A stretch of DNA of 64,000 nucleotides from contig NZ_JAGING010000001.1 in NCBI RefSeq assembly GCF_017875835.1, positions 1,860,001 through 1,924,000 of the forward strand, in the 5' to 3' direction. The stretch is from Psychrobacter sp. PL19 (GTDB lineage Bacteria > Pseudomonadota > Gammaproteobacteria > Pseudomonadales > Moraxellaceae). How positions within the stretch are numbered: position 1 is the first letter of the stretch; each line of letters opens with the position of its first letter. The notes below the pieces were generated by a model. The model was not told the origin of the DNA. It searched no databases and saw nothing but the letters and a program-made list of their open reading frames with translations. This document shows, piece by piece, positions 10,670 through 30,395 of the stretch. Both the position numbers and the translations under genes were made by a program.

Positions 10670-10757
10670 CTCATAAGTCACCTGAGCGGTGATGAAGAGC
10701 AACAACAACATCGGTGTTCGGGCGGACTCTTTCTAAGTCACCTGAGCGGTGATATGC

Positions 10758-10856: not shown

Positions 10857-11004
10857 CTCATAAGTCACCTGAGCGGTGATGAAGGAAGTAAAGTGCCACC
10901 TACGATGACGGTAGATTTTCTAAGTCACCTGAGCGGTGATGAAGTTGCAGCAGTTGGCGATGTATTGATAATCAATTTTCTAAGTCACCTGAGCGGTGAT
11001 ATGC

Positions 11005-11103
11005 TTCTATCCAAATTTATGTCAATATTCCAGCTATTAGCAAATCTTATTCAAAAGATTTACTCTTGCGCATCTAAAATTGACATGCAATTTTTTAACG
11101 CTG
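11005..11103 (-). repeat. 99-bp array-punctuating element, copy 2
   Basis: Same length and same altered flanking repeats as copy 1, differing at two positions that I can see (ATGTCAATATT and CTATTAGC). Confidence 0.9.
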
Positions 11104-11491
11104 CTCATAAGTCACCTGAGCGGTGATGAAGTTTCTACATCCGACCCCGACGTCGACTCAAGCTTTCTAAGTCACCTGAGCGGTGATGAAGGATCAGAAG
11201 TATCAGGAGGATTAGAAGTATCATTTCTAAGTCACCTGAGCGGTGATGAAGCTTCTGAGTCTGACATAACCTTAGATGCCGACTTTCTAAGTCACCTGAG
11301 CGGTGATGAAGCATCCCAATTTTCATAACTTGCTGTTTTTAGCTTTCTAAGTCACCTGAGCGGTGATGAAGTATAATCTAGTGATAACTATTGTGTATCC
11401 TAGTTTCTAAGTCACCTGAGCGGTGATGAAGCATGAGCCAATGAATTTCGGTCAAACGATGATTTTCTAAGTCACCTGAGCGGTGATATGC

Positions 11492-11590
11492 TTCTATCCA
11501 AATTTATATCAATATTCCAGCTACTAGCAAATCTTATTCAAAAGATTTACTCTTGCGCATCTAAAATTGACATGCAATTTTTTAACGCTG
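11492..11590 (-). repeat. 99-bp array-punctuating element, copy 3
   Basis: By eye identical to copy 1, with the same altered bases in both flanking repeats. It separates the block of seven repeats from the block of 69. Confidence 0.9.
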
Positions 11591-12999
11591 CTCATAAGTC
11601 ACCTGAGCGGTGATGAAGAATGGGTATTGTCACTGAGGCACAGATTGCAATTTCTAAGTCACCTGAGCGGTGATGAAGCAGGGCGGAGCGTATGCGGACT
11701 ATGAGCAATGTTTCTAAGTCACCTGAGCGGTGATGAAGCCACCGTTAAGTGGGTATAGTTATTTGTTTTTTTTCTAAGTCACCTGAGCGGTGATGAAGAT
11801 TGACCACTGCAAGCCGTTTATATTAGTTGATTTCTAAGTCACCTGAGCGGTGATGAAGTCATGGGTAACACGCGAGGCACACAGCCTTACTTTCTAAGTC
11901 ACCTGAGCGGTGATGAAGGGACGGCTCATCATCTACGCTGATTTCAAAAATTTCTAAGTCACCTGAGCGGTGATGAAGACTTTCCTAGTTCAGCACGCCC
12001 CACCCATCTTTTTCTAAGTCACCTGAGCGGTGATGAAGAAAATCATTTAAGGGCAAACGTCAACTCTCATTTTCTAAGTCACCTGAGCGGTGATGAAGAT
12101 TAACCCTAATTGCGTGGCCTGCGGCGGTGAATTTCTAAGTCACCTGAGCGGTGATGAAGACAAAGCGAGTGACTACATAGCGGCGGCTGAGTTTCTAAGT
12201 CACCTGAGCGGTGATGAAGCTATCCGGCCCTGCTCTTCTCAGTGCTTTTTGTTTCTAAGTCACCTGAGCGGTGATGAAGATGACGCAACAGGGGTTAATA
12301 ATTTCCCGAAATTTCTAAGTCACCTGAGCGGTGATGAAGCATTGATTGTACATAACTCCGTTGATTCCTCTTTTCTAAGTCACCTGAGCGGTGATGAAGT
12401 GCCTGCAATCGCCTTGTCGCTGATAGTGAGCTTTCTAAGTCACCTGAGCGGTGATGAAGAGATGCCTACTGACGAACGTGTGTTCTTACTATTTCTAAGT
12501 CACCTGAGCGGTGATGAAGGCAGCAGTCACTAGGCATTGACAGTTACGAGTTTTCTAAGTCACCTGAGCGGTGATGAAGTTGTGATAAAAGACGTAAGGC
12601 TGAATTAATTATTTCTAAGTCACCTGAGCGGTGATGAAGATGCAGACTTTATACACTAAAGTTATGACTATTTTCTAAGTCACCTGAGCGGTGATGAAGT
12701 GCGTCATACCGATACACATCTCTCCGTCTTTTTTCTAAGTCACCTGAGCGGTGATGAAGAGTAATAGACCGCGACCCTGCTTTAAACAGTTTTTCTAAGT
12801 CACCTGAGCGGTGATGAAGACCACGGTGTTTATTGCGTTGAGTATCACAATTTTCTAAGTCACCTGAGCGGTGATGAAGCAGCAGTCGCAAGCCAGGACA
12901 AGGTTGTATTATTTCTAAGTCACCTGAGCGGTGATGAAGAGCATGGCACACGCTCAAGCCGCAACTAGCGCTTTCTAAGTCACCTGAGCGGTGATGAAG

Positions 13000-13031
13000 A
13001 CTGGATAGCTTGACCAGGGTGTCCATCACTT
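13000..13031 (-). repeat. Spacer duplicated at 14620-14651
   Basis: Both positions carry the same 32-bp spacer beginning, on the plus strand, with ACTGGATAGCTTGACCAGGG. Confidence 0.9.
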
Positions 13032-14499
13032 TTTCTAAGTCACCTGAGCGGTGATGAAGTTGAGTTGGGTGAACCTTACCGCTAGAGTTATTTTCTAAGT
13101 CACCTGAGCGGTGATGAAGACTCAAGGCCGTGTTTGGGTTAAACCTAATGATTTCTAAGTCACCTGAGCGGTGATGAAGATGTTAAGACGCAAGGTGAGC
13201 AGATACTAGCGTTTCTAAGTCACCTGAGCGGTGATGAAGGTCCCAGTCAGCAGTAGCAGTAACCACTTCTGTTTCTAAGTCACCTGAGCGGTGATGAAGT
13301 TGATTAAAATTTGTTGTTGCTACCGCAGGTGTTTCTAAGTCACCTGAGCGGTGATGAAGCTGTCGCTATTCGTCCTGCCATTATCGCAATGTTTCTAAGT
13401 CACCTGAGCGGTGATGAAGAAGGAAAAATGATCTTTATTATTTACGAGTAATTTCTAAGTCACCTGAGCGGTGATGAAGCAGACTTGTCAGGGGCAGCAG
13501 ACTGGTCAATATTTCTAAGTCACCTGAGCGGTGATGAAGCCATGTCTTACGCTGCGTCTCCTGCGGGTTGGTTTCTAAGTCACCTGAGCGGTGATGAAGA
13601 ATAATATCAGGCTCATTAGAGCATCTAAATTTTTCTAAGTCACCTGAGCGGTGATGAAGGTGCGTGCGGGCGAACTACGTTATGCGCTATGTTTCTAAGT
13701 CACCTGAGCGGTGATGAAGTTATAAGCGCTGAGGCTGACGACTATAAATCATTTCTAAGTCACCTGAGCGGTGATGAAGCCGTCCGGCTGTTCTTTTAAC
13801 TTAAAACCGTTTTTCTAAGTCACCTGAGCGGTGATGAAGAAAGGAAATAAGGAACTAAAAAGTATTAGTGATTTCTAAGTCACCTGAGCGGTGATGAAGT
13901 TAAAGGCACAAGAACAATGAAGTGGCGGGATTTTCTAAGTCACCTGAGCGGTGATGAAGGGGCCGTAACAGCTCTAACAGTACGGTTTAATTTTCTAAGT
14001 CACCTGAGCGGTGATGAAGAATAGATTATTTATAGTAGAGCTGCTAACATATTTCTAAGTCACCTGAGCGGTGATGAAGTAACGTTATGAGTGCGCTGTT
14101 ACTTTCAGGTATTTCTAAGTCACCTGAGCGGTGATGAAGGTAAAGCTAGTTTAAACTGTCTACGAGTGAGTTTTCTAAGTCACCTGAGCGGTGATGAAGG
14201 CGCTTTGTTCTTTGAGTCCACTCTATCTAATTTTCTAAGTCACCTGAGCGGTGATGAAGGTAGTCAAATTCTGACTGCTCTATAACTGTTATTTCTAAGT
14301 CACCTGAGCGGTGATGAAGAGTGTTAGCACACTGTGCAGGTGTATCCCTATTTTCTAAGTCACCTGAGCGGTGATGAAGTGACTAACAACACACCCCGTA
14401 ATTTAACATATTTTCTAAGTCACCTGAGCGGTGATGAAGTAATTATTAAACTATGGCGCGAAGTTGGAATATTTCTAAGTCACCTGAGCGGTGATGAAG

Positions 14500-14591
14500 G
14501 ATAATATAAAAATCAGCCTTCATCGGGTCGTTTTCTAAGTCACCTGAGCGGTGATGAAGGTGTTAAGCTCTGGCAATGACTCTATGGTAAC
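14500..14591 (-). repeat. Two-spacer block duplicated at 19190-19281
   Basis: The spacers at 14500-14531 and 14560-14591 recur in the same order at 19190-19221 and 19250-19281. The two copies lie in different element-delimited blocks of the array. Confidence 0.9.
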
Positions 14592-15699
14592 TTTCTAAGT
14601 CACCTGAGCGGTGATGAAGACTGGATAGCTTGACCAGGGTGTCCATCACTTTTTCTAAGTCACCTGAGCGGTGATGAAGGCTATTACTATTTTTCCGTGT
14701 TGTTCCCTACTTTTCTAAGTCACCTGAGCGGTGATGAAGTGGCGCTACCGCCCTGGCCGTGGACCTCGATATTTCTAAGTCACCTGAGCGGTGATGAAGG
14801 AGTCATCAGGCTACAGCAATGCCGGTAAGACTTTCTAAGTCACCTGAGCGGTGATGAAGGCGCGTTATACATACCATTGACGATAGCTGGTTTTCTAAGT
14901 CACCTGAGCGGTGATGAAGAGGCGCTAAGCACTACGCTAAGCACTGTTCATTTTCTAAGTCACCTGAGCGGTGATGAAGCTAAAATTAATGACTGGTCTA
15001 TCAAAGGCGATTTTCTAAGTCACCTGAGCGGTGATGAAGGTGTTGGCATAAGCTGACTTCCTGTTCAGCATTTTCTAAGTCACCTGAGCGGTGATGAAGG
15101 TAGAGATTGCGCCCTGCTGCTATGCCTAAACTTTCTAAGTCACCTGAGCGGTGATGAAGAGCAAGTATGCTCGTAAGAATCTTATTAGCATTTTCTAAGT
15201 CACCTGAGCGGTGATGAAGGCTGACATATCAGTAAAAATGCCATTGATGATTTTCTAAGTCACCTGAGCGGTGATGAAGGATGACTTGGGTGTTCCTGAA
15301 GATGACCGTATTTTCTAAGTCACCTGAGCGGTGATGAAGACTTCAAACGCGAGTACTTCATTAAACTATAATTTCTAAGTCACCTGAGCGGTGATGAAGG
15401 CTTACGGTAGTTTCAGCCGTTATGGATGGGTTTTCTAAGTCACCTGAGCGGTGATGAAGGATTGAAGGTAGTGATATCGCTATCGTTCAGTTTTCTAAGT
15501 CACCTGAGCGGTGATGAAGTTTGGAAACTAATATATCAGCCATTCCGTCAATTTCTAAGTCACCTGAGCGGTGATGAAGCACCGCTTAAACTGCCAACAC
15601 GCAGGGCATTATTTCTAAGTCACCTGAGCGGTGATGAAGGCTCAATCAAAACGATTGATGACATTTCTTCATTTCTAAGTCACCTGAGCGGTGATATGC

Positions 15700-15798
15700 T
15701 TCTATCCAAATTTATGTCAATATTCCAGCTACTAGCAAATCTTATTCAAAAGATTTACTCTTGCGCATCTAAAATTGACATGCAATTTTTTAACGCTG
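15700..15798 (-). repeat. 99-bp array-punctuating element, copy 4
   Basis: Nearly identical to the other internal copies, with the ATGTC variant shared with copy 2. It separates the 69-repeat block from the leader-proximal 82-repeat block. Confidence 0.9.
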
Positions 15799-16607
15799 CT
15801 CATAAGTCACCTGAGCGGTGATGAAGGCTTATTACCAAGCGATTAAAGATGCGGAGGTTTTCTAAGTCACCTGAGCGGTGATGAAGTACAACCCGTTATT
15901 TTAGGCGAACCCGTAACATTTCTAAGTCACCTGAGCGGTGATGAAGTCTGACAATCAAATTGATACACCCCAGATTAATTTCTAAGTCACCTGAGCGGTG
16001 ATGAAGGGTTTTGTTACTGATGCGATCCGTATATTCGCTTTCTAAGTCACCTGAGCGGTGATGAAGGATGGAAATCTATGGCATACAGGTACGATGTTTT
16101 TCTAAGTCACCTGAGCGGTGATGAAGCATTAACGTCCATATTGTCAGTGATTAGGTTATTTCTAAGTCACCTGAGCGGTGATGAAGCATGAGTTCGGACA
16201 CATTGCAGCAGCAGATAGTTTCTAAGTCACCTGAGCGGTGATGAAGTGAAGTTAACGAGCATAGCGATTATAAAAACGTTTCTAAGTCACCTGAGCGGTG
16301 ATGAAGCTGTATTGGTCGATTCAGTGTTAGTTATAGATTTTTCTAAGTCACCTGAGCGGTGATGAAGGATGATAAACAATCTATTTCGAATAGTAGTGAT
16401 TTCTAAGTCACCTGAGCGGTGATGAAGAGATAAAAGCAAGCCCCGCAAAATTGTTGCAATTTCTAAGTCACCTGAGCGGTGATGAAGTATATTATTATTG
16501 ATGAAGTAGGCGGTGAGCATTTCTAAGTCACCTGAGCGGTGATGAAGAATTACAGGGCGGTAGTCCTGCTCAGCAGCAATTTCTAAGTCACCTGAGCGGT
16601 GATGAAG

Positions 16608-16759
16608 TGTAATATGTTGTCATAATGTTGATTCCTATTTTTCTAAGTCACCTGAGCGGTGATGAAGGATACAAACGCTGTGATTTGCATTAGACCGATT
16701 TTCTAAGTCACCTGAGCGGTGATGAAGCGAAAGTCCTATTATAGCTCCAAAATATAGCA
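16608..16759 (-). repeat. Three-spacer block duplicated at 17808-17959
   Basis: Spacers at 16608, 16668 and 16728 recur in order exactly 1200 bp (20 units) further on, which points to a segmental copy within the array. Confidence 0.9.
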
Positions 16760-19700
16760 TTTCTAAGTCACCTGAGCGGTGATGAAGTAAGCGCATTGTG
16801 TTGCCTAGGTACGCATATATTTCTAAGTCACCTGAGCGGTGATGAAGTATTACGTACACCTGCTAGCTTGTCCTCATGTTTTCTAAGTCACCTGAGCGGT
16901 GATGAAGACCACTTCATAACACTATTAACTTTTTTCGGTTTTCTAAGTCACCTGAGCGGTGATGAAGTTGGCTGTCGCAATCCAAATCAACATCGGTAAT
17001 TTCTAAGTCACCTGAGCGGTGATGAAGACAAGGCTTTAATATCGGTAATAACTGTTTTCTTTCTAAGTCACCTGAGCGGTGATGAAGGCTCTGGGAATAG
17101 TTTTTTAATGGTTTGTAGTTTTCTAAGTCACCTGAGCGGTGATGAAGGATAATTACGTAATGCTAATTGTTGAAGTGATTTTCTAAGTCACCTGAGCGGT
17201 GATGAAGTTTGTAGACCAATTTGAAAAATACAATAGAATTTTCTAAGTCACCTGAGCGGTGATGAAGTCATGTTGTAAGCCTTTTATATAGTGTTTATTT
17301 TTCTAAGTCACCTGAGCGGTGATGAAGCTTTAGCAAATAACCATTTCACAAGCTATAGCTTTCTAAGTCACCTGAGCGGTGATGAAGATATTGTGATGAT
17401 GATAGCGTTATCATGGGTTTTTCTAAGTCACCTGAGCGGTGATGAAGCGCAACATAATGCTATAACGTCCAATGCTATCTTTCTAAGTCACCTGAGCGGT
17501 GATGAAGATATATTAAACACTCAATAAAACACACTTAAATTTCTAAGTCACCTGAGCGGTGATGAAGATTTGTATGATTTAAAACCAAACAAGCATGGTT
17601 TTCTAAGTCACCTGAGCGGTGATGAAGACTCTTATAGTCTTATAGCGTTCTTATACATATTTCTAAGTCACCTGAGCGGTGATGAAGAAGTAAAGTTTAT
17701 TTATAACCATTTTCTATGTTTTCTAAGTCACCTGAGCGGTGATGAAGGGCATGGTTACAGCTCAGATAGTTTTTTCAGCTTTCTAAGTCACCTGAGCGGT
17801 GATGAAGTGTAATATGTTGTCATAATGTTGATTCCTATTTTTCTAAGTCACCTGAGCGGTGATGAAGGATACAAACGCTGTGATTTGCATTAGACCGATT
17901 TTCTAAGTCACCTGAGCGGTGATGAAGCGAAAGTCCTATTATAGCTCCAAAATATAGCATTTCTAAGTCACCTGAGCGGTGATGAAGTAAAAAACCTTTA
18001 AACCATCCACGTTGGCTTATTTCTAAGTCACCTGAGCGGTGATGAAGTTTCCTTTTGGCAATAAAAAGCCACCAATTAATTTCTAAGTCACCTGAGCGGT
18101 GATGAAGATGGTACGGGTTTAAAAACTTACCATCTCTTATTTCTAAGTCACCTGAGCGGTGATGAAGTTACAGCAAAAAGACTAGTGCTAGCTCGATGCC
18201 TTTCTAAGTCACCTGAGCGGTGATGAAGACCTCAGCGTTTTGCATGTTCTGAGGCGCTACATTTCTAAGTCACCTGAGCGGTGATGAAGCACCTACCTAA
18301 CATTCCTTGCCATGCTCTATATTTCTAAGTCACCTGAGCGGTGATGAAGCTGACAACACAGGCAAAACCGCATCTTTTAACTTTCTAAGTCACCTGAGCG
18401 GTGATGAAGAGAGGTTATATGTGGCTCTACGGCAAAGATAATTTCTAAGTCACCTGAGCGGTGATGAAGTATCGTCATCTATCGCACCGCCACCATTTGT
18501 ATTTCTAAGTCACCTGAGCGGTGATGAAGTTTGAGTAGTTATATCTTTAGTAGTGGGTTTATTTCTAAGTCACCTGAGCGGTGATGAAGGTGAATGAAGC
18601 TGAGATAGATGCTTACTACCATTTCTAAGTCACCTGAGCGGTGATGAAGGATTATTTATTAATTCCGGTATTTCAGAAAATTTTCTAAGTCACCTGAGCG
18701 GTGATGAAGCGGTCTAACAGCAACAACAACGTTGGCTGCCGTTTCTAAGTCACCTGAGCGGTGATGAAGGCTTAACAGGCTCACCAGGCAATAACTATGC
18801 ATTTCTAAGTCACCTGAGCGGTGATGAAGTCAATCATAGCACAGGCATATCATGCGCTGGATTTCTAAGTCACCTGAGCGGTGATGAAGAGCTTAGGTGT
18901 TAGCAATGCAGAAGATAGCCATTTCTAAGTCACCTGAGCGGTGATGAAGGCAAGGCGGCTGTAACTAAAGGCTCGTTTGCATTTCTAAGTCACCTGAGCG
19001 GTGATGAAGTATTGAGAAGATGCTAACAGCTTACGGTCAATTTTCTAAGTCACCTGAGCGGTGATGAAGAAATACCACAATCACCAATAGTCACAGCAGA
19101 CTTTCTAAGTCACCTGAGCGGTGATGAAGTAAAGCATTATTCACAGCCCAACAACTTAGAATTTCTAAGTCACCTGAGCGGTGATGAAGGATAATATAAA
19201 AATCAGCCTTCATCGGGTCGTTTTCTAAGTCACCTGAGCGGTGATGAAGGTGTTAAGCTCTGGCAATGACTCTATGGTAACTTTCTAAGTCACCTGAGCG
19301 GTGATGAAGGTGCGTGGAACGTATCACAGATTAACGAAATGTTTCTAAGTCACCTGAGCGGTGATGAAGTTTCACGCTCTACGATATAAGAGCCTTCTAT
19401 TTTTCTAAGTCACCTGAGCGGTGATGAAGAAGACAAGGAAAGCGCCCTAGCATATACAAACTTTCTAAGTCACCTGAGCGGTGATGAAGGTTTAGGCGTT
19501 ACCAATGCGCTAGATAGTTATTTTCTAAGTCACCTGAGCGGTGATGAAGGCTTAGCTTTGGCGACTTCCGTGTTCGTTAATTTTCTAAGTCACCTGAGCG
19601 GTGATGAAGAGCACTCAACCATAAAGTCGGTGGCCGTGGTTTTTCTAAGTCACCTGAGCGGTGATGAAGTAAAAAAGCCCTGACGATCCGGACAGATAGC

Positions 19701-20689
19701 ATTTCTAAGTCACCTGAGCGGTGATGAAGTTATGAGGGTTGATACAATAGAACACTTTCAATTTCTAAGTCACCTGAGCGGTGATGAAGCAGGAAAGGCA
19801 ACTATCTCTAGTTGGGTTAGTTTTCTAAGTCACCTGAGCGGTGATGAAGCAATTGCTAACGCAGCGATTTGACATGATGCATTTCTAAGTCACCTGAGCG
19901 GTGATGAAGGCTCTATTAAGTAGCGGCTTTACATGGTAATTTTTCTAAGTCACCTGAGCGGTGATGAAGACTGAGACGATTAACGAGATTATGAACTACA
20001 TTTTCTAAGTCACCTGAGCGGTGATGAAGTTGACTTCTTAAACGCCTCATCTTCTGTTGACTTTCTAAGTCACCTGAGCGGTGATGAAGATCAGCCGCCT
20101 CACTATGACCGCCCGTCTTATTTTCTAAGTCACCTGAGCGGTGATGAAGAACAAATGGTGCGCTAAAGAAAATGGCGACATTTTCTAAGTCACCTGAGCG
20201 GTGATGAAGTAATATAAACATGAGCGACTTGGGAGCTGACTTTTCTAAGTCACCTGAGCGGTGATGAAGTCGACCCCTCCCTGTTCGCCAATATCGTTAA
20301 ATTTCTAAGTCACCTGAGCGGTGATGAAGGCTATTAGCCAGCCGATAGGCCCCGTTAACAATTTCTAAGTCACCTGAGCGGTGATGAAGCACGTTTGACA
20401 GTATGGTGGAGTCCGTAACCTTTTCTAAGTCACCTGAGCGGTGATGAAGGTCCTGGGCGTCCTGGCGCTTATCGCTGTTGTTTTCTAAGTCACCTGAGCG
20501 GTGATGAAGGTGTATGTGGTCTCCTCTATCATTTCGCGTAATTTCTAAGTCACCTGAGCGGTGATGAAGTTTAAGGCGGTGGCGGACGCCGCCATAGGAA
20601 TTTTCTAAGTCACCTGAGCGGTGATGAAGCCTACCACTTGCCAGCGCTGTACTCCCCTATTTTTCTAAGTCACCTGAGCGGTGATGAAG

Positions 20690-20867
20690 AGGAATTATAC
20701 CTCTAAAAAACCAGTTATGACAAGGCTTGGAGGACAAAATACCCTATTTTACCCTCTGTTTTTTGCCTTATCATAACTGTATGATAAATAAGCGAATTTT
20801 TAAATAATCTAAAAAAAGGGTTTTTACTCCTAGTTTTTGGGTAATTCGTCATTACCATGAAAGCAAG
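20690..20867 (-). promoter_or_regulatory. CRISPR leader
   Basis: 178 bp of AT-rich sequence between the cas6f stop and the first repeat, on the side where type I-F leaders lie. It should contain the array promoter and the IHF-dependent integration signals. It holds a nested inverted repeat at 20712-20779. No reading frame of note. Confidence 0.8.
20712..20779. repeat. Nested inverted repeat in the leader
   Basis: Outer arms at 20712-20726 and 20765-20779 match as inverted repeats at 14 of 15 bases (CAGTTATGACAAGGC against GCCTTATCATAACTG). Between them is a second dyad, CAAAATACCCTATTTT with GGAGG and CCCTC around it. Confidence 0.75.
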
Positions 20868-21473
20868 TTACCAATGCGGCACGGTAACCTGACCTATTTT
20901 ATTATTCATACCATAAACATTGAACGTGCCTTTACAAGCGCTGGCAGTTACTTCTTGAAAAATTGCCAGTTTATAAGGTTGTTGATTGGTCTCACTTTTT
21001 AAGTTGATATGAGGATAGGGCTTATTATCCTGTTTATGCGCAGCACAGTGTACAAGCGCATTTTCAAGGCTGATGTCTTTGTGTTTAGCAAATTCTTCAG
21101 CTTGCTTGAGCGGATTTTTTGGACGATAACGGCTGACCACCAGATGACTTTTTGCTTTATCACCGACCTCACTAATACTTTTAATATGCACATAATCAGT
21201 TAGTCTTGATAGCCAACTGTTGAGACTTAATGTTTCTAAATCCTTTTGGCTGAGTGCAAATACTCGTAGCTTAAGCCCAAGCTTGGATGATTTACCCTTG
21301 TCATCATAATGATAGTCAGGAAAGCTGACACCGATTGACTCGATGCCATGCTTGTTTTTGACCTCAGCTAAGCTGATATGCAACTGCGTAAACAGCTTAC
21401 TCCAGATAAAGTAGGGTGCAATATCAGGATCGGGAATAATGGTGATTTCTTGGTAATGCGTCAATTGACTCAT
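20868..21473 (-). CDS. cas6f: Cas6f (Csy4), crRNA-processing endoribonuclease
   Basis: 201 residues, normal for Cas6f. His32 in QLHISLAE sits where the catalytic His29 of Pseudomonas Csy4 lies. The enzyme binds the repeat hairpin, cuts at its 3' base to leave the 8-nt handle, and stays bound as the head of the Csy complex. The gene starts 3 bp after cas7f stops, is the last cas gene, and is followed by the leader. Near-certain from position and length. Confidence 0.95.
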   Translation of the reverse strand: MSQLTHYQEITIIPDPDIAPYFIWSKLFTQLHISLAEVKNKHGIESIGVSFPDYHYDDKGKSSKLGLKLRVFALSQKDLETLSLNSWLSRLTDYVHIKSISEVGDKAKSHLVVSRYRPKNPLKQAEEFAKHKDISLENALVHCAAHKQDNKPYPHINLKSETNQQPYKLAIFQEVTASACKGTFNVYGMNNKIGQVTVPHW

Positions 21474-21476
21474 GAA

Positions 21477-22487
21477 TTACTCCTTACCGCTGGCACCGAA
21501 CACACCGCCACGAATAAGCACGCCCATCACATAGTGTTGCTGGCTGGCGTCTGGGGCTTCACCTTTGAGTACCCAGTTATCAAATAGGCTATAAAAGTCC
21601 ATTTTGTCTTTAGGCTGGCGGAATGCTGTACCCATAGTCGTCACTGCGCCATACGGTTCGATGGCAATAGGGAACTCGGCATTAGGATACCAATCATCAA
21701 TAGTGCGAATGGCGTTGCTGACTTTTTGCGAGTGCATGCCAGCCTTACCGTTGACTTCATACAGAATTTTACTTTTGGTCTTACCAGTATCGAGCACCAG
21801 CTCTTGTGAAGGATAGACTTCTTGACCGTAGCCCATAATGGCAAAGGATTTTACGTATAAAATAACAAAAGCGTTACCTGTCAGTCCACGTTCAATGATG
21901 CTGGCAAGTTTATTAACATCATTGCTTGGTTCATTAAAGTTATGCAATGAGATCGATTTAGCGTCAAAGCTCAACTGCTGTTGCTTACCATCGGTATCGC
22001 AGCTGACCTCAACTTTAATGCTTTGAGCGCCGACGCGATTGCGCCATAACCAACGCGCATTAGCAATGTTAGTTGCATAACGACGCGCTAATTCGCTAAC
22101 ACCTTCGCCATCAAGATAACTTTTCACTGTTGCTACCAATGCTTGCTGATAATCTTGGTCATTACAGACATTAGGCTTACCGGTAAATGGCAATACCTTA
22201 CCGCTCCACGTCACGACCAATGTATCATTACTCTCGTCTAACGAAGCTGAATCCACGGTTTGTAGATTGGCCTTTTGAATTTCAGCGTCAAGCTTTGTAG
22301 GGTCGTTGGCGATAGCATTTTTTTGACGGTTGCTAATCGTACCGCGCACAGACTTTTCTTTGATGATAACAGGCGTTACTTTTGTATTGACATCTTGGCT
22401 GTTCGTTTGTGCAAAAAAGCCATCTGAAATATCAAGATTACGCTCAAAAGCGAGGACGGATGCGGTTTTTAGGGCTAATTTTGACAT
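21477..22487 (-). CDS. cas7f: Cas7f (Csy3), backbone subunit of the type I-F interference complex
   Basis: 336 residues, as expected for Csy3, starting MSKLALKTASVLAFERNL, which is characteristic of the family. Six copies coat the spacer part of the crRNA and flip out every sixth nucleotide. The gene is separated from cas5f by 64 bp and nearly touches cas6f. This larger upstream gap may help produce the excess of Cas7f needed for complex stoichiometry; that is an inference. Confidence 0.96.
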   Translation of the reverse strand: MSKLALKTASVLAFERNLDISDGFFAQTNSQDVNTKVTPVIIKEKSVRGTISNRQKNAIANDPTKLDAEIQKANLQTVDSASLDESNDTLVVTWSGKVLPFTGKPNVCNDQDYQQALVATVKSYLDGEGVSELARRYATNIANARWLWRNRVGAQSIKVEVSCDTDGKQQQLSFDAKSISLHNFNEPSNDVNKLASIIERGLTGNAFVILYVKSFAIMGYGQEVYPSQELVLDTGKTKSKILYEVNGKAGMHSQKVSNAIRTIDDWYPNAEFPIAIEPYGAVTTMGTAFRQPKDKMDFYSLFDNWVLKGEAPDASQQHYVMGVLIRGGVFGASGKE

Positions 22488-22551
22488 GTGATTCTCCGTG
22501 ATTATTAAAATAGTTGTAAAAATGCTTTACTGTGCTTCATAATAAATGAAA

Positions 22552-23523
22552 TTAAAAATCTTGGTTCTGAGTAACCAAATACAATGATTGTTCAGCGTCG
22601 TAGTGATAGCGCCAAAATGCATTAGCAATATCATTATCACCACCGACACTATTCAAGCGCTGTGGATAGACCCATTTGCCAAGGGTATAGACTGCCTCGA
22701 CATATTGACTGGGATATTCAGGATTGCGCACGTTTTGCATTACGCCAGCGTCATAACATTCTGAGATACCTTGATAACCGACTGGCATGGGGACCAGCCA
22801 ACCGTGACCTGTTTTACGTGACATAGTCAGCCATTTGCTATCGCCGTTTTTTTGCGTCTCAGGAATATGATGCAAGGCACAGACATCGATAAGCGCGTCT
22901 AATGGCGTGGCATCAGGATTGTCCTGTTGTACCTTACCGATAATTTCGTCAAAGTCATCTTGCGCGTCCATCAAGATAAAGGCGGGTAGTAACTGCGGTA
23001 TCACATCGCCAATATCATTTTTACCAAAAAATTGTACTGGCTCAAACCGCGCCATACTTTGCACGCTACCGCCTGCCATACGCTGCTGCTGTAGCCATTG
23101 TTTGGTTTTTTGCATAGCGTGCGCTTGCTGCTTATTAGTTAATGATTCTTCGCTTAATACCTCAACAATAAAGGTCATGACCAATCGGCATTTGCCTTCT
23201 TCAATGATAGAAGCAGTTTTGCCATCTTTTTTAATAGGGTTACGCGTTTGGTTAAACGTATAATTATTATAAGTATTGGCGCGATACATTTGTGGTTGGC
23301 AGTCGTGGCAAGCAAGTAACACGCCGCCTAATGACACCCCTGACAATTGCTCATCGTCCGCCATCTTACGTGACATTGCATGAAAACTGCCCAAAAACCC
23401 AGTAATAGCAGGGAAGCCATAAGTTAAAGGGCTGGAGATGGTATTTGCGCCCTCAATCACGACTTTTTTAAACATTAAATAGCCAACTACTCCAATGGCT
23501 ACGTCATCATCAATGCGGCTCAT
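22552..23523 (-). CDS. cas5f: Cas5f (Csy2), subunit of the type I-F interference complex
   Basis: 323 residues, typical for Csy2. It overlaps the end of cas8f by 4 bp (ATGA-type coupling). Cas5f pairs with Cas8f at the 5' handle of the crRNA and forms the tail of the Csy complex. Recognised from size, order and internal patterns such as AITGFLGSFHAMSRK near residue 40 that recur in Csy2 proteins. Confidence 0.94.
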   Translation of the reverse strand: MSRIDDDVAIGVVGYLMFKKVVIEGANTISSPLTYGFPAITGFLGSFHAMSRKMADDEQLSGVSLGGVLLACHDCQPQMYRANTYNNYTFNQTRNPIKKDGKTASIIEEGKCRLVMTFIVEVLSEESLTNKQQAHAMQKTKQWLQQQRMAGGSVQSMARFEPVQFFGKNDIGDVIPQLLPAFILMDAQDDFDEIIGKVQQDNPDATPLDALIDVCALHHIPETQKNGDSKWLTMSRKTGHGWLVPMPVGYQGISECYDAGVMQNVRNPEYPSQYVEAVYTLGKWVYPQRLNSVGGDNDIANAFWRYHYDAEQSLYLVTQNQDF

Positions 23524-24899
23524 AAAAATACCCCTTTGCCTGCGCGCTCGTAACGTTTTTTCATATCCTCAATCTCACGCTCCCATTCAAGGTGCTCTGC
23601 GTCACCAAAGTCGCGTGCTAGCGCTTTGAATTCAGCTTGCAGAAGTGTGTTTAACCAGCGAGCAAAACGGTGCATGATTTGACCATGCCATGAATCATTG
23701 CTTTCACGTTCGGCTTTGAAGTCTTCTTCGCCTGTCATATCAGCACGTTTTGGATCCAACCAAAGCTTTTCACAACGGTCAAGGTCATAGTCTTTTGACC
23801 AACCAGCGGGCAATGTGGTGCGGATGTTTTCTGCGTTGGCAAATACTTGGTATAGCACCTCATCAATGGCACGTTTGCGTGCATCTCTGATATCAACGAT
23901 GTTGCGGCTGTTTTTAACGGATTTAAAGATACTGTCCAGTGCCTCACGCACGTTATATTCCATACCTGTGCTAAAAATGCTGGTGGCGAATTTTGACAAG
24001 TGGTAAGCATAATCACGTTTGATGATGGGTGGCATTGAGGGGAGAAGGTAGTTGCGTCCGCCTTGCTTACTCATCAGTAAGCTGACGTTTTGCGGTTTAG
24101 TGCCGCCAAGCTGAATAGTTGCTAATTGATTTAGACTCACATAAGGGCGCTGTTCTGCAGTCTTTTTAAAGCGATTGTCGCGCGCCGCTTTATTTTCATC
24201 AGAAAATTTAAGATGATTGATTCGCTGATAAACCTCATGAGTGAGAACAGAAGGGTAGAGTGGAATGACATTAATATAATCAAGTTGTTCTCTATCTACG
24301 CCTTGATAAGCATTAGTTACCCATAATGTTTGTTTATTACGTTCATGAGTGACAGGCTCAGTAATGATATTCTGTAAGGCCGTTTTAAATGTTTGATGAT
24401 AAGTATCTGACGTTTCTTTATGACTGGTTAATGAGGCAATAAAGTCGGCATTGTCAGTCAGAATAAGGTCACGAATTTTGATGGTCTCGTTCACTTCGAA
24501 ATCAAAAAAAGCAGCAAGAGGTAGGGCAGCAGCATTACCGTTAGCATCAATATATCTGCTAACTATGGAGTGAGTACCAACAAGGGTATTTGGCAAATAA
24601 TTTTCAGCATCAAAACTAACGTTATCGCCTTTAGCATCAGGATGTATGCCTTTTGAGATATGTGTCCCAAAATTCAATTGTTTTGCCATACGTGTGGCAG
24701 CATCAGGGATAAAGCTTGTGATGCTGTATTTTTCTTGAGCAACGGCCAGTTTTTCATTTAAGCTATCAATCAATACTGAATCATTACTCTCTATCGCTTT
24801 GACCAGCTGCTTTTGCTCAGTTTCTGTTTTTTTATCATATTGGCTGGCAAGAAATGCTTTAATTGCACCGCTTGCTAACTCTGGGGGTATATCCATCAC
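23520..24899 (-). CDS. cas8f: Cas8f (Csy1), PAM-recognising large subunit
   Basis: 459 residues, in the usual range for Csy1. It reads the CC PAM and recruits Cas2-3. It is the first gene of a separate cas8f-cas5f-cas7f-cas6f operon: a bidirectional terminator (25111-25141) lies between it and cas2-3. GTG (24897-24899) and the ATG directly after it are both possible starts behind GGAG at 24912-24915; spacing is 6 or 9 nt. Its upstream region holds the protospacer matched by the CreR-like RNA encoded at 25032-25140, implying repression when the complex and that RNA are abundant. Confidence 0.95.
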   Translation of the reverse strand: MMDIPPELASGAIKAFLASQYDKKTETEQKQLVKAIESNDSVLIDSLNEKLAVAQEKYSITSFIPDAATRMAKQLNFGTHISKGIHPDAKGDNVSFDAENYLPNTLVGTHSIVSRYIDANGNAAALPLAAFFDFEVNETIKIRDLILTDNADFIASLTSHKETSDTYHQTFKTALQNIITEPVTHERNKQTLWVTNAYQGVDREQLDYINVIPLYPSVLTHEVYQRINHLKFSDENKAARDNRFKKTAEQRPYVSLNQLATIQLGGTKPQNVSLLMSKQGGRNYLLPSMPPIIKRDYAYHLSKFATSIFSTGMEYNVREALDSIFKSVKNSRNIVDIRDARKRAIDEVLYQVFANAENIRTTLPAGWSKDYDLDRCEKLWLDPKRADMTGEEDFKAERESNDSWHGQIMHRFARWLNTLLQAEFKALARDFGDAEHLEWEREIEDMKKRYERAGKGVFL

Positions 24900-24973
24900 G
24901 ACTTACTCCTTTTTTAGAACGCACAAAAGTAAATAACTAGAAGCATTAAAACACGAAATTATAAATAAGTAAA

Positions 24974-24995
24974 CCATGATATAATCATTACTAAA
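24974..24995 (+). promoter_or_regulatory. CC PAM plus partial protospacer for the CreR-like RNA, upstream of cas8f
   Basis: CC at 24974-24975 is followed by ATGATATAATCATTACTAAA at 24976-24995. This matches the 20-nt pseudo-spacer at 25060-25079 at 17 positions. The mismatches are at positions 6, 12 and 16; 6 and 12 are nucleotides that Cas7f flips out. 5'-CC is the type I-F PAM. The site lies 75-100 bp upstream of cas8f, in or next to its promoter. Confidence 0.85.
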
Positions 24996-24999
24996 AATA

Positions 25000-25028
25000 T
25001 TAACTATTGATGAAAAATTTGTTATAAT
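25000..25028 (+). promoter_or_regulatory. Promoter of the CreR-like RNA
   Basis: TTAACT (25000-25005), a 17-nt spacer, then perfect TATAAT (25023-25028). The predicted start, about 25035, falls just before the hairpin of the first degenerate repeat, so almost nothing but the mini-CRISPR would be transcribed. Confidence 0.75.
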
Positions 25029-25031
25029 CCA

Positions 25032-25140
25032 TTTAATCATCGCAAAGGTGACTTAGAAAATGATTTAATCGTTATTAAATTTCTCCACCGCACAGGTGGT
25101 TTGGCTACAATAAAAAGACACGGTTCACACCGTGCTTTTT
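25032..25140 (+). ncRNA. CreR-like mini-CRISPR guide RNA inside the cas locus
   Basis: Two degenerate type I-F repeats flank a short pseudo-spacer. Repeat 1 (25032-25059) matches the array repeat at 23 of 28 positions, with GGTGACTTAGAAA intact, so the hairpin 3' arm and 8-nt handle are unchanged. The pseudo-spacer (25060-25079) is 20 nt. Repeat 2 (25080-25107) matches at 19 of 28 and keeps a five-pair hairpin, CCACC/GGTGG. An intrinsic terminator follows at once. It is antisense to the cas operons and encodes no protein. Known CreR RNAs have this design and repress cas promoters through a short guide that allows binding but not cleavage. No room for a CreT toxin is seen, so CreR fits better than CreTA. 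Confidence 0.85.
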
Positions 25141-25141
25141 T
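25111..25141. terminator. Bidirectional terminator between cas2-3 and cas8f
   Basis: CACGGT-TCAC-ACCGTG with AAAAAG before and CTTTTTT after. On the plus strand it ends the CreR-like RNA; on the minus strand it would end the cas1-cas2-3 transcript. Confidence 0.85.
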
Positions 25142-25163: not shown

Positions 25164-28100
25164 TTACTCACGTACAAAGCCAAAAAACTCATTGAACTTC
25201 CAGCCCCTACTGTTATTAGTTTTAATGCTATCAAGGGACACTGACGAATAAGTGATAGCAAGCGAGCGTAAGCTTTTATCAGGCTCTGCGACTTCTAATT
25301 TATTTAATTCAGCGTTTAGCGAGGTGCTAAGCCAAGGCTTTATTCGCGCGCTAGTGAACTCAAAAACCAACGGTTGAAGAACCTTGTTCTGCGCGCTTGA
25401 TTTGGCGAGTCCTTTTTCGAATATATCTTCAGCATAATAAGCGTCAAAGCCTTGGGTAGGTATATCCATATCTTCATCATCGCTGACTATGCGGGGAATG
25501 ATTAGCCAGTCATCTTGTGGTATGCCTGCACGGAATGGGCTGATTTGCTGTAGATGGGTATGGGTGCGGTTGGCAGTGGCTTTACTATCCCAATAAGCAT
25601 TGACGTAGTTGAGCTTAGGATTGTTTAATAAATGCCGCATTACTTGGTGCTCAAGATCGCTGAGAGTATTAATTTTTTTGCTAGGTGTCTTCTTAGACGC
25701 TTTGTTAAATGGGTCACTATGAGAAGTAACTATGCGCGGTCTAGCGTCCACATTTGCCAATTGTTCTGTCGTCATCAACTCATTCAAATCGTAACTAGCT
25801 GGCTTAAACAAAGTGGTCTCAAACCCAGGGTGAGTAAAGACAGGTTGACTGCCATTGTTTTTAAAATAGCGAATATTATGTTGTAGCAGTAGCATATTGG
25901 GCGTGGTTGCAACTTTGTCCGGACGATGCCGCCAAATACGTCCAGCCAGCTGAATGATTGAGCGCATAGAGGATGGTTCAACGATTGCCCAATCGTAATC
26001 ATGGTCGCGTCCAACTTCAGCAACTGGAGTAGCCAGCACCATAAAAATATGATTTTTAGCAGGATTGTTTGCTAGCGCTTGCTTTATTTCAGGATGATCA
26101 AAAATAGCCACTTTACTGTCACTACGGTCTAAAATCCGATCAAGTTTGTTTTCTAACGCATTTCGCAGTAACAAAAGCTGCTTGGCGTGATAACAGACCA
26201 CATGCAATATCGTGTCGTTAGGTACAGTGATGTTGTCGGCTTTGAATAATTGCATAGCGATGGCGTTGATATTATTGATATTGGCAACCCGAATCAGTCC
26301 AATGCTGATTTTTATTGTTTTATAACCTTTCGTTTTGTCAACTGCTGCTGTATCAGTCTTTGGCTGAACGTTATGACTGTTATAATGGTCACTATGCAAG
26401 CGTAGAGCACCATCAACCAAGGTTTGCGCCAATGGTTTGTAAAAATCTGCTTCTTTGTCTTTGCTATAATGGGTCGAGAATGGCAATATTTCTGCTTTTC
26501 GTCTAACGGGCTGTTTTGATAAATAGCTGGCGCGTTTCTCACAAAAGTGTTGATGGGTTTTAGTAAAATTAGCAATAGTGCTGCACTGCTCAGACATGAT
26601 GGCTTTTGGTTGCTCATCGAACCAAGCACAGACGACGTTAGGCGTAGACTTGTTTTGACTGTGATTAAACAGTTTGCGCCCCTCCATATATGCCTCAAAC
26701 AATCCTGTTACTAAGTCAGGCGTCAAGGTCGCAGACGAGAGCAGCACGCGCGTACCAAACAGTCCGGCAAGGTGCATCAGACGGGTGAGGGCAGGCAAGT
26801 CCGCTTGGTCAAAGTCATCTGGTTCATCGAGTATTAAGTCACTACTAAGTAGCCGTAGCATCGGCGCAATATATTTACCCCCGCGTTTGCATTCGCTTGC
26901 TTGAATAATATGATCAACAGTACAAGTCACAATCGGTGCAAATACTAAATCGCGAGCTTTGGGACTAGCAATGACCGTGCCTAGATTTAAATCATCATAG
27001 TCCTGATAATCGATATCACTATCAATCATCTCGTCTAGTAATTCCTCGCTGGACTCACTGCCAAAGGTATCATTATCGTTTTCCGGTTCATCATCTTTCC
27101 TGTATTCACTGAGAATGTCAGCACTTTCTTGATTGTCATTAGTAGCCATTTCGAACAGCTTTCTATTGGCAGTACCCCCGACTAATATCGCTAATTGATC
27201 GCCTTCCAGCTTCAAATTCTTACGAAAGCTCAGTCCTGTTTGCAAGGTTAAGATACGCAAGCCTAAGGCAATGGTGAAGCGTGCGCCTTTTTTGGGATCA
27301 GCTAGAGCATACATAATCCGCGCATTGCCAATAGTCTTACCTGCGCCCGTCGATGCCATATTGACACCAAAGAAACCATGCTCACGCGTTGTTTCTTGCA
27401 AACCATAGGTCATTTTAAAGGCCGTATTTTGCCACTTAAAACGTTCAATACCAGTAGGCTTGACGAGTGGATCATGATTGCGCAGTGCAGGCATCTCGCT
27501 AGCTATAATAGGCAGTGCACGGCAGAACTGGGCAGTGAATGCACCAACTCCTAATAAATGCTCCTCTAATGATTGTTTGACTGTCGGTTTGCTCGCTGTT
27601 CTATCGGTATTTGCAGCTAACTTTTTAAACTGACTATTCACCTTGATACAACGTGAGTCTTCTTCTTTAAGACTAGAGTAATTATGGTCACCAACCATCA
27701 AGCAAAGCCGTGATAAATGCAGTAAAAAAGGGTCGCTTATGGCATGATTGGTCGCCACAGCATTCTGGCTTAGCTCCATCAATGCCGGATCATTCAATAC
27801 CTTTGTAGCCCAGCGCTTAATATTTTTCTGCCAAATAGAACTATTAATCACTAATTCGTCAAATTGCCAAAAGTCTTTTAATTGAGATTTGGTCATTTCA
27901 TCTATTGATTTAGGATTTCTCACCCAATAATCAATCGGCGTAAGTTCTGAGTAAAATTGATTCAAGTCTTTTTTTATATCTGCTGTGTTATTAGGTAGTT
28001 GTGAGCGCTGAATGGTTTTAGATGGATAAAAAACTTTGTTAACAGGTGGTAGGCGATGATGAGTGACAATCAGCCAAGCAACCCATTGGGCAAGGGGCGG

Positions 28101-28706
28101 CATCTTATGCAGATGAATTGCATCGAGTTTAGAGGTGGATAATAACTTTTCTATATCATTATTTTTTAGCCAGGTGTCAATCGTTATAAAACGCTCTAGA
28201 AACTCATCATCCTTGGTGCAGTCTGTAATGATGAGTTCAAATAATTTAAGTGATATCCATTCATGACGATAGGGATCGCCAAGTTTACTACCTACAAGGA
28301 GTTTTTTCTGAAAGCCAATGCTGGATTTACCAATGTCATGAAGTAGGGCGGCGATAGTAGCGATAATTTGAATACTACTGGCGTAACTCCATTCATTCTC
28401 CCATTCACTATGCAAAATATTTCTTTTCGTACGGTTCACCGGCACCACACCGATCTCATTAAATTTACGCTTATTGCCCACTATCCATACCAACTCAGTC
28501 AATTGGCGTGACTTATTGCGATGACAGCTAACGGCAGTAGATTTGGTCGCCGACTTTCGTAGTAGTTGCTTTACAGTCTTTAGACCTTCCTCAGTGATGG
28601 CCGTTTGCCAGACATTATTGCCAATACGATTGGCAAAGCTGTCTAAAATACGACGTGTGCGATTGATCGACTTTTTTTCGCATTGCGAGACCAAGGTGAC
28701 AATCAT
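25164..28706 (-). CDS. cas2-3: Cas2-3 fusion, type I-F nuclease-helicase
   Basis: 1180 residues, somewhat longer than the usual 1050-1100. Residues 1-95 are the Cas2-like domain (MIVTLVSQCEKKS...). The HD nuclease follows, with His123-Asp124 in LLHDIGKSS. The helicase has Walker A ASTGAGKT near 450 and a DEPD box near 623. It degrades targets marked by the Csy complex and works with Cas1 in spacer capture. The start codon directly abuts the cas1 stop, so the two are cotranscribed. A bidirectional terminator follows the stop, separating it from the cas8f operon. Confidence 0.96.
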   Translation of the reverse strand: MIVTLVSQCEKKSINRTRRILDSFANRIGNNVWQTAITEEGLKTVKQLLRKSATKSTAVSCHRNKSRQLTELVWIVGNKRKFNEIGVVPVNRTKRNILHSEWENEWSYASSIQIIATIAALLHDIGKSSIGFQKKLLVGSKLGDPYRHEWISLKLFELIITDCTKDDEFLERFITIDTWLKNNDIEKLLSTSKLDAIHLHKMPPLAQWVAWLIVTHHRLPPVNKVFYPSKTIQRSQLPNNTADIKKDLNQFYSELTPIDYWVRNPKSIDEMTKSQLKDFWQFDELVINSSIWQKNIKRWATKVLNDPALMELSQNAVATNHAISDPFLLHLSRLCLMVGDHNYSSLKEEDSRCIKVNSQFKKLAANTDRTASKPTVKQSLEEHLLGVGAFTAQFCRALPIIASEMPALRNHDPLVKPTGIERFKWQNTAFKMTYGLQETTREHGFFGVNMASTGAGKTIGNARIMYALADPKKGARFTIALGLRILTLQTGLSFRKNLKLEGDQLAILVGGTANRKLFEMATNDNQESADILSEYRKDDEPENDNDTFGSESSEELLDEMIDSDIDYQDYDDLNLGTVIASPKARDLVFAPIVTCTVDHIIQASECKRGGKYIAPMLRLLSSDLILDEPDDFDQADLPALTRLMHLAGLFGTRVLLSSATLTPDLVTGLFEAYMEGRKLFNHSQNKSTPNVVCAWFDEQPKAIMSEQCSTIANFTKTHQHFCEKRASYLSKQPVRRKAEILPFSTHYSKDKEADFYKPLAQTLVDGALRLHSDHYNSHNVQPKTDTAAVDKTKGYKTIKISIGLIRVANINNINAIAMQLFKADNITVPNDTILHVVCYHAKQLLLLRNALENKLDRILDRSDSKVAIFDHPEIKQALANNPAKNHIFMVLATPVAEVGRDHDYDWAIVEPSSMRSIIQLAGRIWRHRPDKVATTPNMLLLQHNIRYFKNNGSQPVFTHPGFETTLFKPASYDLNELMTTEQLANVDARPRIVTSHSDPFNKASKKTPSKKINTLSDLEHQVMRHLLNNPKLNYVNAYWDSKATANRTHTHLQQISPFRAGIPQDDWLIIPRIVSDDEDMDIPTQGFDAYYAEDIFEKGLAKSSAQNKVLQPLVFEFTSARIKPWLSTSLNAELNKLEVAEPDKSLRSLAITYSSVSLDSIKTNNSRGWKFNEFFGFVRE

Positions 28707-29702
28707 TTATACCTCCCAATCTTTGATCATAGCAAGTGTTTTTATCACTTCAAACTGATAGTCTAATGCCTTGTGTTTAGTGAACATATTCAGGCACTCT
28801 TGCCGGAACTGTTGCTCACTGACATTTTCAGCCGCGCAAATAAAGGCTAGTGGTAGTACTAGTGCATCCTTGATGATATCAGCAATATCGAATACCAAAG
28901 CGCCGCGACGGGTCTTACCATGCATCACCGCAAAACCATGCGGAATACCCAATGTCCAAGCTGTCGTTGCGCCAAGTCCATAAGCCAGGTAGTTGCCATG
29001 ATTGAGGAAGCCATTGGCCTTATCAATGCCCTCATGCTCGCGGGTAAAGCCATCGTAGCCGGTATTCTTTGCAGCCAGTTTATACAGCTGTTTAGTTAAC
29101 CGCGCCTCCAACTGCATTAGATGCATGACTTCTTGCTGCTGATTGATCTGACGAATATTATCAGTCAGCAGCGCTTGTACTGTGTCTATACTGCTATCAA
29201 AGCCCCAGCGTTTTAGATCACTGTCTTTACCCCAAACTGTTTGTAGATAGGCTAGGCGAGCGTGTTGTAAGTGTTTAGCCGCTGTTAAGCGTTTGTCATC
29301 ATCCCACCACCAGCTCATCCAGCCTTGAATATATTCAGTGGGGCGATACTCGCTTTGTGGGGTCATCCATTCAATAAAGATCTCACGCTCCGCACCCATA
29401 AATAGTGGTGTGCCACCACCACCGCAAAATCCGACCAATACTCCCGCTTGTGATAATAGCCGCATCGCTGCTTGGGTAATGGAAGTACCTGTACCCAACA
29501 ATATCGATGTGGTATTGGCGATAGGAATGTTATAGAACAGATTGGCTTTGTCGTCTTCGGTAAGATATAACACGCGACCGTCTTTTTGCATGACGCGACA
29601 ATGGGAAAGATAGTAGATGTTGGCACGTTTAGAATGCAGGATTGTTTTAAGGTCTGTGCTGTCGAATGCATTCGTAGTGTAAGGGTTAGTCGATTTAGCC
29701 AT
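28707..29702 (-). CDS. cas1: Cas1, type I-F spacer integrase
   Basis: 331 residues, normal for I-F Cas1. Family features include a beta-domain start DLKTILHSKRANIYYLSH and the central RLTKQLYKLAAKNTGY region of the alpha-domain active site. Cas1 with the Cas2 part of Cas2-3 cuts and inserts new spacers at the leader. It is first in the cas1-cas2-3 operon. Upstream (29703-29823) lies only a short AT-rich promoter region and then an IS5 remnant. Confidence 0.96.
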   Translation of the reverse strand: MAKSTNPYTTNAFDSTDLKTILHSKRANIYYLSHCRVMQKDGRVLYLTEDDKANLFYNIPIANTTSILLGTGTSITQAAMRLLSQAGVLVGFCGGGGTPLFMGAEREIFIEWMTPQSEYRPTEYIQGWMSWWWDDDKRLTAAKHLQHARLAYLQTVWGKDSDLKRWGFDSSIDTVQALLTDNIRQINQQQEVMHLMQLEARLTKQLYKLAAKNTGYDGFTREHEGIDKANGFLNHGNYLAYGLGATTAWTLGIPHGFAVMHGKTRRGALVFDIADIIKDALVLPLAFICAAENVSEQQFRQECLNMFTKHKALDYQFEVIKTLAMIKDWEV

Positions 29703-29789: not shown

Positions 29790-30395
29790 TTATTCAAAAT
29801 AGAGTAAATGATTGTTTGTAGAATAGGGCCTGTTGAACATACATAATCTCAGCCAGATATAAGCGCCAGCTAGCGCCACCGTATTCTCATAACTTTGTTT
29901 AAGTTTATCGTATCTGGTGGCCACTGCTCTGAACCATTTTAAGTGTGCAAACGCATTTTCAACTAAATGGCGTATCTTATACAAGTCCCAGTCCATATGA
30001 TGGTTATCAGATTTTGTATTCTTCTTTCTAGGAATATTATCGAAGCTCCCTGCTTGTTTAATGTGCTCTCTTAGCGTGTCAGAGTCGTAGCCTTTATCGG
30101 CACATAAAATATCGGTATTGCTTAAATCTATCTTATCAACTAAATCTGGCGCGACTTTAACATCGTGAGTGGTGCCATCTGATAATATAAAGCTGATCGG
30201 GTTACCATGAGCATCGACTGCTAAGTGAATCTTGGAAGCACGACCTGCCACACTTTTACTGATGGCTTGATCCGCTTCATTAACGCCACTGAGGTGCAAA
30301 AGTCTGTGGTTTCCGTGAGAATCAGAAAATAGCAGCCAGCCTTGCATAAAGTCGGGAGAACGCTGGCAGATATAGAAACGTACTCCATAAATCAC
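29790..30395 (-). pseudogene. IS5-family transposase, N-terminally truncated
   Basis: The minus strand encodes 201 residues with the IS5/IS427-type DDE core: DQAISKSVAGRASKIHLAVDA, then LCADKGYDSDTLRE, then RHLVENAFAHLKWFRAVATRYDK at the C-terminus. The first Asp of the DDE triad and the N-terminal helix-turn-helix are not recognisable upstream; the sequence before residue 20 has a stop. Probably inactive. Confidence 0.8.

Follow-up and report, generated by a model that had tools for sequence, protein, structure and literature searches.

CRISPR-derived mini-arrays with partial complementarity to cas8 promoters were reportedly described by Shmakov in 2023 (NAR 51:8150), and one type I-F1 mini-array is said to have been shown there to act as a regulatory guide. 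Cas-regulating mini-arrays of this kind are already described, and the element analyzed here, which lies in a 64-kb stretch of DNA (henceforth the window, meaning that whole stretch), joins a known kind. One named form is CreR, a cas-regulating mini-CRISPR RNA (Liu 2023, as described in PMC12737573 and PMC13131331). In the available sections of these two papers, autorepression by CreR is given for subtypes I-B, I-E and V-A (PMC13131331) or for type I and V-A (PMC12737573). A second form is the CreA RNA of CreTA modules; in Acinetobacter WCHA45, a type I-F CreTA module guards a 33-bp RNA toxin (PMC10097628).

The window element resembles CreR, as far as the available text on CreR goes, in being a mini-CRISPR that is partly complementary to a cas promoter and is free of a toxin, and in the repression of cas genes; for the window, both the promoter and the repression are predicted. 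Its subtype, I-F, is outside the list given for CreR in that part of PMC13131331 (I-B, I-E and V-A), but is that of the mini-array reportedly tested by Shmakov. Its target touches a predicted -35 box from the upstream side. With the WCHA45 module, as presented in the sections of PMC10097628 available, it shares the location in the cas3-csy1 gap, divergent orientation relative to the downstream gene, the CC PAM and a pseudo-spacer of 20 nt; unpaired positions in WCHA45 CreA are 6, 11 and 18. According to the same sections, the WCHA45 target lies downstream of the creT start. In the window, by contrast, the target is on the upstream side of the predicted -35 box of cas8f, and no 33-bp toxin frame with a ribosome site was found.

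A mini-CRISPR within a type I-F cas locus

The minus strand of the window bears a type I-F CRISPR-Cas locus in the order cas1, cas2-3, a 264-bp gap, csy1 (cas8f)-csy2-csy3-csy4 and a CRISPR array, and all six proteins (Cas1f, Cas3f and Csy1-4) score above their NCBIfam cut-offs. The cas8f gene (23520-24899, minus strand; TIGR02564) leads a predicted regulated operon that also comprises csy2, csy3 and csy4 (cas5f, cas7f and cas6f; 20868-23523, minus strand). The cas2-3 and cas1 genes (25164-29702, minus strand) lie upstream of a terminator and are likely a transcription unit apart from the cas8f operon. With up to four mismatches allowed, the array (10670-20689, minus strand) counts 163 repeats, and its leader end adjoins csy4.

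Within the gap, the plus strand holds repeat-like units around a spacer-like sequence. A first-pass annotation of this DNA had claimed here a CreR-like mini-CRISPR rather than a stray repeat, composed of a promoter, two degenerate repeats, a 20-nt pseudo-spacer and an intrinsic terminator, and each of these parts is present. The predicted promoter (25000-25028, plus strand; consensus scan) joins the -35 box TTAACT (25000-25005) to the -10 box TATAAT (25023-25028) across 17 nt and agrees with the consensus at 10 of 12 positions; two promoter-like sites were found against a mean of 1.5 in shuffled sequence, so this promoter alone is not above chance. In 18 of the 21 elements of the first survey set described below, the end of the best-scoring -10 box is 6-8 nt away from the first hairpin, in a search that extended up to 12 nt ahead of that hairpin. 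Psi-repeat 1 (25032-25059, plus strand) agrees with the array repeat CTTCATCACCGCTCAGGTGACTTAGAAA at 23 of 28 positions, forms a stem of 25037-25041 with 25047-25051, and carries the 8-nt handle CTTAGAAA (25052-25059), which is indeed intact, as had been stated. It is followed by the pseudo-spacer, or guide, ATGATTTAATCGTTATTAAA (25060-25079, plus strand, 20 nt) and by psi-repeat 2 (25080-25107, plus strand), which agrees with the array repeat at 19 of 28 positions and combines a strong stem (25085-25089 with 25095-25099) with a degenerate handle. Besides these two units, nothing on the plus strand of the window has fewer than 11 mismatches to the array repeat. A bidirectional intrinsic terminator (25118-25141; terminator scan), consisting of a stem at 25119-25134 and a following run of T, forms the boundary between the mini-CRISPR and cas2-3 (two found, 0.2 expected).

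An RNA spanning 25035-25141 is predicted to fold into both repeat hairpins and the terminator with a stability matched by none of 200 shuffles (z -3.15), much of which is accounted for by the terminator. Judging from the hairpin positions, the mature RNA after Cas6f processing would span 25052-25099 (plus strand; 8 + 20 + 20 nt), the layout of the sequenced WCHA45 CreA in the available part of PMC10097628. The element is not a canonical array, as its repeats agree at 23 and 19 of 28 positions and its 20-nt spacer matches its own locus. It shares the repeat hairpin and the handle with the type I-F array next to it, but has two unequal degenerate repeats, a 20-nt rather than a 32-nt spacer, a terminator of its own and a chromosomal target. 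A comparison of the element with Rfam gave no match at E 1.

The array has features of its own. Its leader contains a promoter-like TTGTCA-18-TATAAT (20694-20723; 11 of 12 positions) with a -10 box that ends 4 nt ahead of repeat 1, similar to the mini-CRISPR. Four near-identical 99-nt inserts, each bounded by variant repeats, lie between 10730 and 15826, and because their ends resemble the sequence just past the far end of the array (10640 onward), the array may be composed of several arrays linked in a row. An exact duplication within the array covers 211 nt of spacers and repeats (16580-16790 and 17780-17990). Beside cas1, a transposase-like frame (DDE_Tnp_1) occupies 29790-30395.

The guide target beside the predicted cas8f promoter

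The target of the guide was not among the parts named in the first-pass annotation. It is the protospacer ATGATATAATCATTACTAAA (24976-24995, plus strand), which agrees with the guide at 17 of 20 positions (mismatches at 6, 12 and 16), or at 16 of 17 when positions 6, 12 and 18 are excluded, and is directly preceded by CC (24974-24975, plus strand), the type I-F PAM given in PMC10097628. Neither 100,000 shuffled guides nor the 63,679 other plus-strand 20-mers of the window included one that fits the CC sites of the gap as well as the guide does, and the next best among the window's 5,075 CC sites matches the guide at 12 of 17 positions. Searched genome-wide, a 17-base PAM-plus-seed pattern with two N had one exact hit, its own target, and two others with one mismatch.

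Touching the PAM is the -35 box (TTTACT, 24968-24973) of a predicted cas8f promoter (24945-24973, minus strand), with 17 nt to an extended -10 box, TGT-TTTAAT. This promoter is a weak match to the consensus and is absent from the list of the consensus scanner, whose alternative, TTAATA-16-TATCAT, sits within the target and slightly past it; by sequence, either candidate would be covered or abutted at the target. The guide is thereby partly complementary, with a PAM, to what is predicted to be the promoter of a cas gene. Among the 19 first-set elements with a same-strand target, 12, including the window, have GG (the PAM read from the cas8f side) touching the -35 box, followed by 17 nt and a TGN-extended -10 box. 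The other seven (L011, L013, L015, L016, L019 and the Acinetobacter-like L031 and L034) are without this layout; in L011, the target lies within the leader and the PAM 19 nt ahead of cas8f.

The position of the target bears on whether the RNA might instead work by antisense pairing with the cas8f leader, independent of the Csy complex. Such a reading calls for a guide complementary to the sense strand of cas8f, which this one is, but the predicted -35 box lies between the target and cas8f, which places the target outside the predicted cas8f mRNA, and the CC PAM, together with the six-base spacing of mismatches described below, marks DNA recognition by a type I complex. We therefore regard antisense action as extremely improbable.

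The first-pass annotation had left open whether the element is of the CreR or the CreA type. Were it the antitoxin creA of a CreTA module, its RNA would brake a toxin instead of, or besides, cas8f. The likeness to the WCHA45 module speaks for this, as does our detection of creT-like 33-bp mini-ORFs in the Acinetobacter-like loci L030, L031, L033 and L035, which served as a positive control; L030, L031 and L033, which are among our 36 elements, look like CreTA. The window, too, combines a mini-CRISPR with a nearby CC-flanked target and contains an ATG frame of 33 bp (10 codons, 24946-24914) downstream of the target, equal in length to the Acinetobacter creT frame. This frame, however, reads unlike creT and is without a Shine-Dalgarno sequence, and it falls outside the predicted mRNA because its ATG overlaps the predicted cas8f -10 box. 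The 5' leader from that promoter would be about 40 nt long and would run out at cas8f. Of the loci that share this promoter layout (12 with the window), L024 is the only other one with an ATG frame there, of nine codons and without a Shine-Dalgarno sequence. A scan of both strands of the gap for mini-ORFs and 33-bp creT detected no creT-like mini-ORF with a Shine-Dalgarno sequence, downstream of the target or elsewhere, and to the extent of that scan the element is free of toxin coupling. We consider a CreTA module improbable for the window; the absence of such a mini-ORF and the target at the predicted cas8f promoter favor CreR, which is the better name given where the target lies.

Racrs are promoter-driven solitary repeats that bind type I-F Cas6f and Cas7f (as described in part of PMC10651486), which raises the question of whether the element could be a decoy RNA that titrates these proteins. 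It is, however, not a solitary repeat on a mobile element, but has two repeats, a guide and a cognate target within a cas locus. Phage-borne copies were sought by handle plus seed in viral contigs, which gave three hits, none with a repeat hairpin by eye; searches with the target and its flank and with an array-like repeat pattern gave no hits. We give the decoy reading next to no weight.

Guide-target co-variation and a six-base mismatch pattern

We found cas8f in 20 of the 105 genomes searched for the genus and in 62 of the 299 searched for the family. A first set of 31 upstream regions (35 loci minus L017, L018, L020 and L021, which are partial or distant cas8f hits) contained a two-repeat element in 21 cases. 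A scan of named genomes covered 78 loci, of which 74 were examined (L082, L096, L114 and L149 had little upstream sequence) and 29 pairs were reported; after removal of ordinary arrays (L097, L098, L099, L107 and L127) and nine first-set duplicates, 15 further elements were kept. These come from a Pseudomonadales MAG, Orbaceae, Pelistega, Comamonas, Pseudothauera, Vreelandella, Porticoccaceae, Pontibacterium, a betaproteobacterial MAG and Marinobacterium. The total is 36 elements upstream of cas8f in Gamma- and Betaproteobacteria, several of them close kin. Detection demanded at least four of five stem pairs, repeat likeness and the handle of psi-repeat 1 (not of psi-repeat 2). With a reporting threshold of 44, none of 1,480 shuffled regions yielded a pair at the control threshold of score 46.

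Guides vary by lineage and follow the nearby targets. In the 21-element set, guides match their own targets at a mean of 16.0 of 20 positions, compared with 10.6 for 420 swapped guides, and swaps with at least 14 matches are confined to the Psychrobacter-, Moraxella- or Acinetobacter-like groups. When the best target was sought without a PAM requirement, CC preceded it in 35 of the 36 elements; the exception, L111, has CT there and no good CC target (62 of 200 shuffles were as good). At 20 positions, not all of 200 sets of shuffled guides were beaten for L022 (17 were not), L026 (15), L025 (2) and L034 (1). This co-variation, together with the target beside the predicted cas8f promoter, supports the earlier claim of a CreR-like mini-CRISPR as opposed to a stray repeat.

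Mismatches between guides and targets are periodic. Across positions 1-18 of the 36 elements, they occur by phase of six in 2, 16, 9, 14, 11 and 69 of 108 cells, such that positions 6, 12 and 18 hold 69 of the 121 mismatches (Fisher 2e-19 in the 21-element set, in which elements are not independent). In class 1 complexes, the thumb of Cas7 deflects each sixth target nucleotide and blocks its pairing (as stated in part of PMC11519345), so the pattern is the expected trace of selection for DNA recognition by Csy. It is predicted neither by decay nor by duplication nor by RNA-RNA pairing. We did not meet such a signature in the open-access literature searched for this pattern, including the available sections of the CreTA papers PMC9458426 and PMC8501985. 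Beyond about 24 nt, complementarity is at background, even where the pseudo-spacer is longer.

These data also weigh on the notion that the element is a functionless, decaying small array whose guide matches by chance or through local duplication. Degeneration of both repeats and loss of the element in some kin would fit decay, but no shuffled guide among 100,000 equaled the match in the window, distinct guides follow distinct targets, targets follow CC almost throughout, and mismatches cluster at the positions that are not read. The probability that we assign to decay is very small.

We propose, on the strength of sequence comparisons, that the mini-CRISPR probably makes a CreR-type guide RNA that would bring Csy to a site at the predicted cas8f promoter and repress the cas8f-csy2-csy3-csy4 operon. 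Transcription would start near 25035 and end at the terminator, and Cas6f would cut after both hairpins to give a 48-nt RNA with an 8-nt handle, the 20-nt guide and a 20-nt 3' hairpin. A short Csy complex would then bind the target through guide positions 1-5, 7-11, 13-15 and 17-20, with the PAM-side Cas8f overlapping the -35 box and shutting out RNA polymerase. Since pairing ends near 20 nt, Csy at this site is not expected to license cleavage of the chromosome by Cas2-3. In type I-B, guide complementarity of up to 26 nt gives repression without cutting (reported in part of PMC10551041), and by analogy the same presumably holds for the I-F complex of the window. The repression would be relieved if array crRNA became more abundant or if Csy were sequestered by an anti-CRISPR.

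If correct, this mechanism would account for how the level of the effector complex is set in a type I-F system with nearly 160 spacers, and the loop would be split: the interference operon would regulate itself, and cas1 and cas2-3, behind the terminator, would not be included. The 36 natural guide-target pairs further suggest which base pairs the Csy complex needs in the cell. They yield a rule for finding such regulators (CC, five matches, skip, about five matches, skip, about five more, stop), and the same pairing rule could be applied to repress chromosomal genes without cutting.

Repeat asymmetry, gain and loss of the element

The two repeats of these elements are unequal. Comparisons with array repeats cover 30 elements, the 36 without the five that lack a detected array and without L022, which had been compared with a fallback repeat. 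The 8-nt handle equals that of the element's own array in 25 of 30 cases for psi-repeat 1 and in one of 30 for psi-repeat 2. All five stem pairs of psi-repeat 1 covary across the 36 elements; this covariation and the handle count are partly built in, as a stem and repeat likeness were required for detection. Psi-repeat 1 is closer to the repeat of its own array than to the mean of other arrays in 28 of 30 elements. In 23 of these 30, its stem falls short of the array stem in strength, and the psi-repeat 2 stem is the stronger of the two in 31 of 36 elements, with three ties (Wilcoxon 7e-7).

The first-pass annotation had named conservation in related cas loci as a check on its claim. Of the same-genus loci whose cas8f match is nearly full-length (L001-L016, 16 with the window), nine carry the element; in the other seven, some of which keep relics, the element is absent and therefore dispensable. 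Several loci without it retain the T-tract of the terminator immediately after cas2-3, and a single repeat-like remnant is left in L012, which point to loss by deletion. The nearest counterpart of the window element is found in P. urativorans (89% identical DNA across 113 nt, from psi-repeat 1 to the terminator), whereas the cas8f protein of P. urativorans is 71% identical to that of the window and those of five other relatives 78-80%, which hints that the gap is exchanged as a unit.

The P. urativorans element (L007, L041 and L080, with L007 and L080 on the same contig) has three repeats, the only third repeat-like unit among the 36 elements. Its repeats 1 and 2 are identical to each other, agree with the array repeat at 26 of 28 positions with the two differing bases shared, and enclose a spacer of 32 nt that lies toward the promoter from the guide. 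The simplest reading is that this extra spacer was gained in place; searches of viral contigs (with its first 20 nt, exact) and of phages returned nothing. In the available text of PMC8501985, two-repeat creA genes are said to be without the leader required for growth, and in that of PMC9458426, degeneration of creA repeats is proposed as a guard against corruption. A tentative reading, possible but in our judgment rather unlikely, is that mini-CRISPRs are living arrays turned inward, in which a weak psi-repeat 1 and a strong psi-repeat 2 make the RNA a deliberately poor competitor for Csy and thus a gauge of free effector. If arrays were so turned inward, a degenerate psi-repeat 1 would also shield the guide against new spacers, and P. 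urativorans would be the reverse case, with a regulator that seems to have recorded an immune memory. We met neither the hairpin asymmetry nor the spacer-bearing copy in open-access literature, where our searches were aimed at neither.

A DNA search for orphan copies in the 105 genus genomes returned matches below E 1e-10 only at cas8f loci (its own and those of G103, G067, G052, G104 and G082), and the weaker matches among those listed are mostly array repeats. The Psychrobacter plasmid pA11BP5, outside the 36, bears an element with the guide of L006. A looser, repeat-free scan of 91 regions gave 84 guide-target pairs, of which 35 include a handle-like 8-mer. It suggests additional and more divergent elements, also outside the 36, with a handle-like sequence and CC targets at L032, L035, L089, L091, L092, L129, L141, L142 and L146. 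At L002 and L003 (equal to L078, Psychrobacter sp. FME6, and L079, P. vallis), a gene for a 77-aa DUF2188 protein separates the guide-targeted promoter from cas8f and would thus also come under the control of the RNA. In the Orbaceae loci L105, L111, L112, L115 and L122 (Gilliamella and Frischella), similar frames of 107-120 aa lie between target and cas8f and are possibly another cargo gene under the guide's control.
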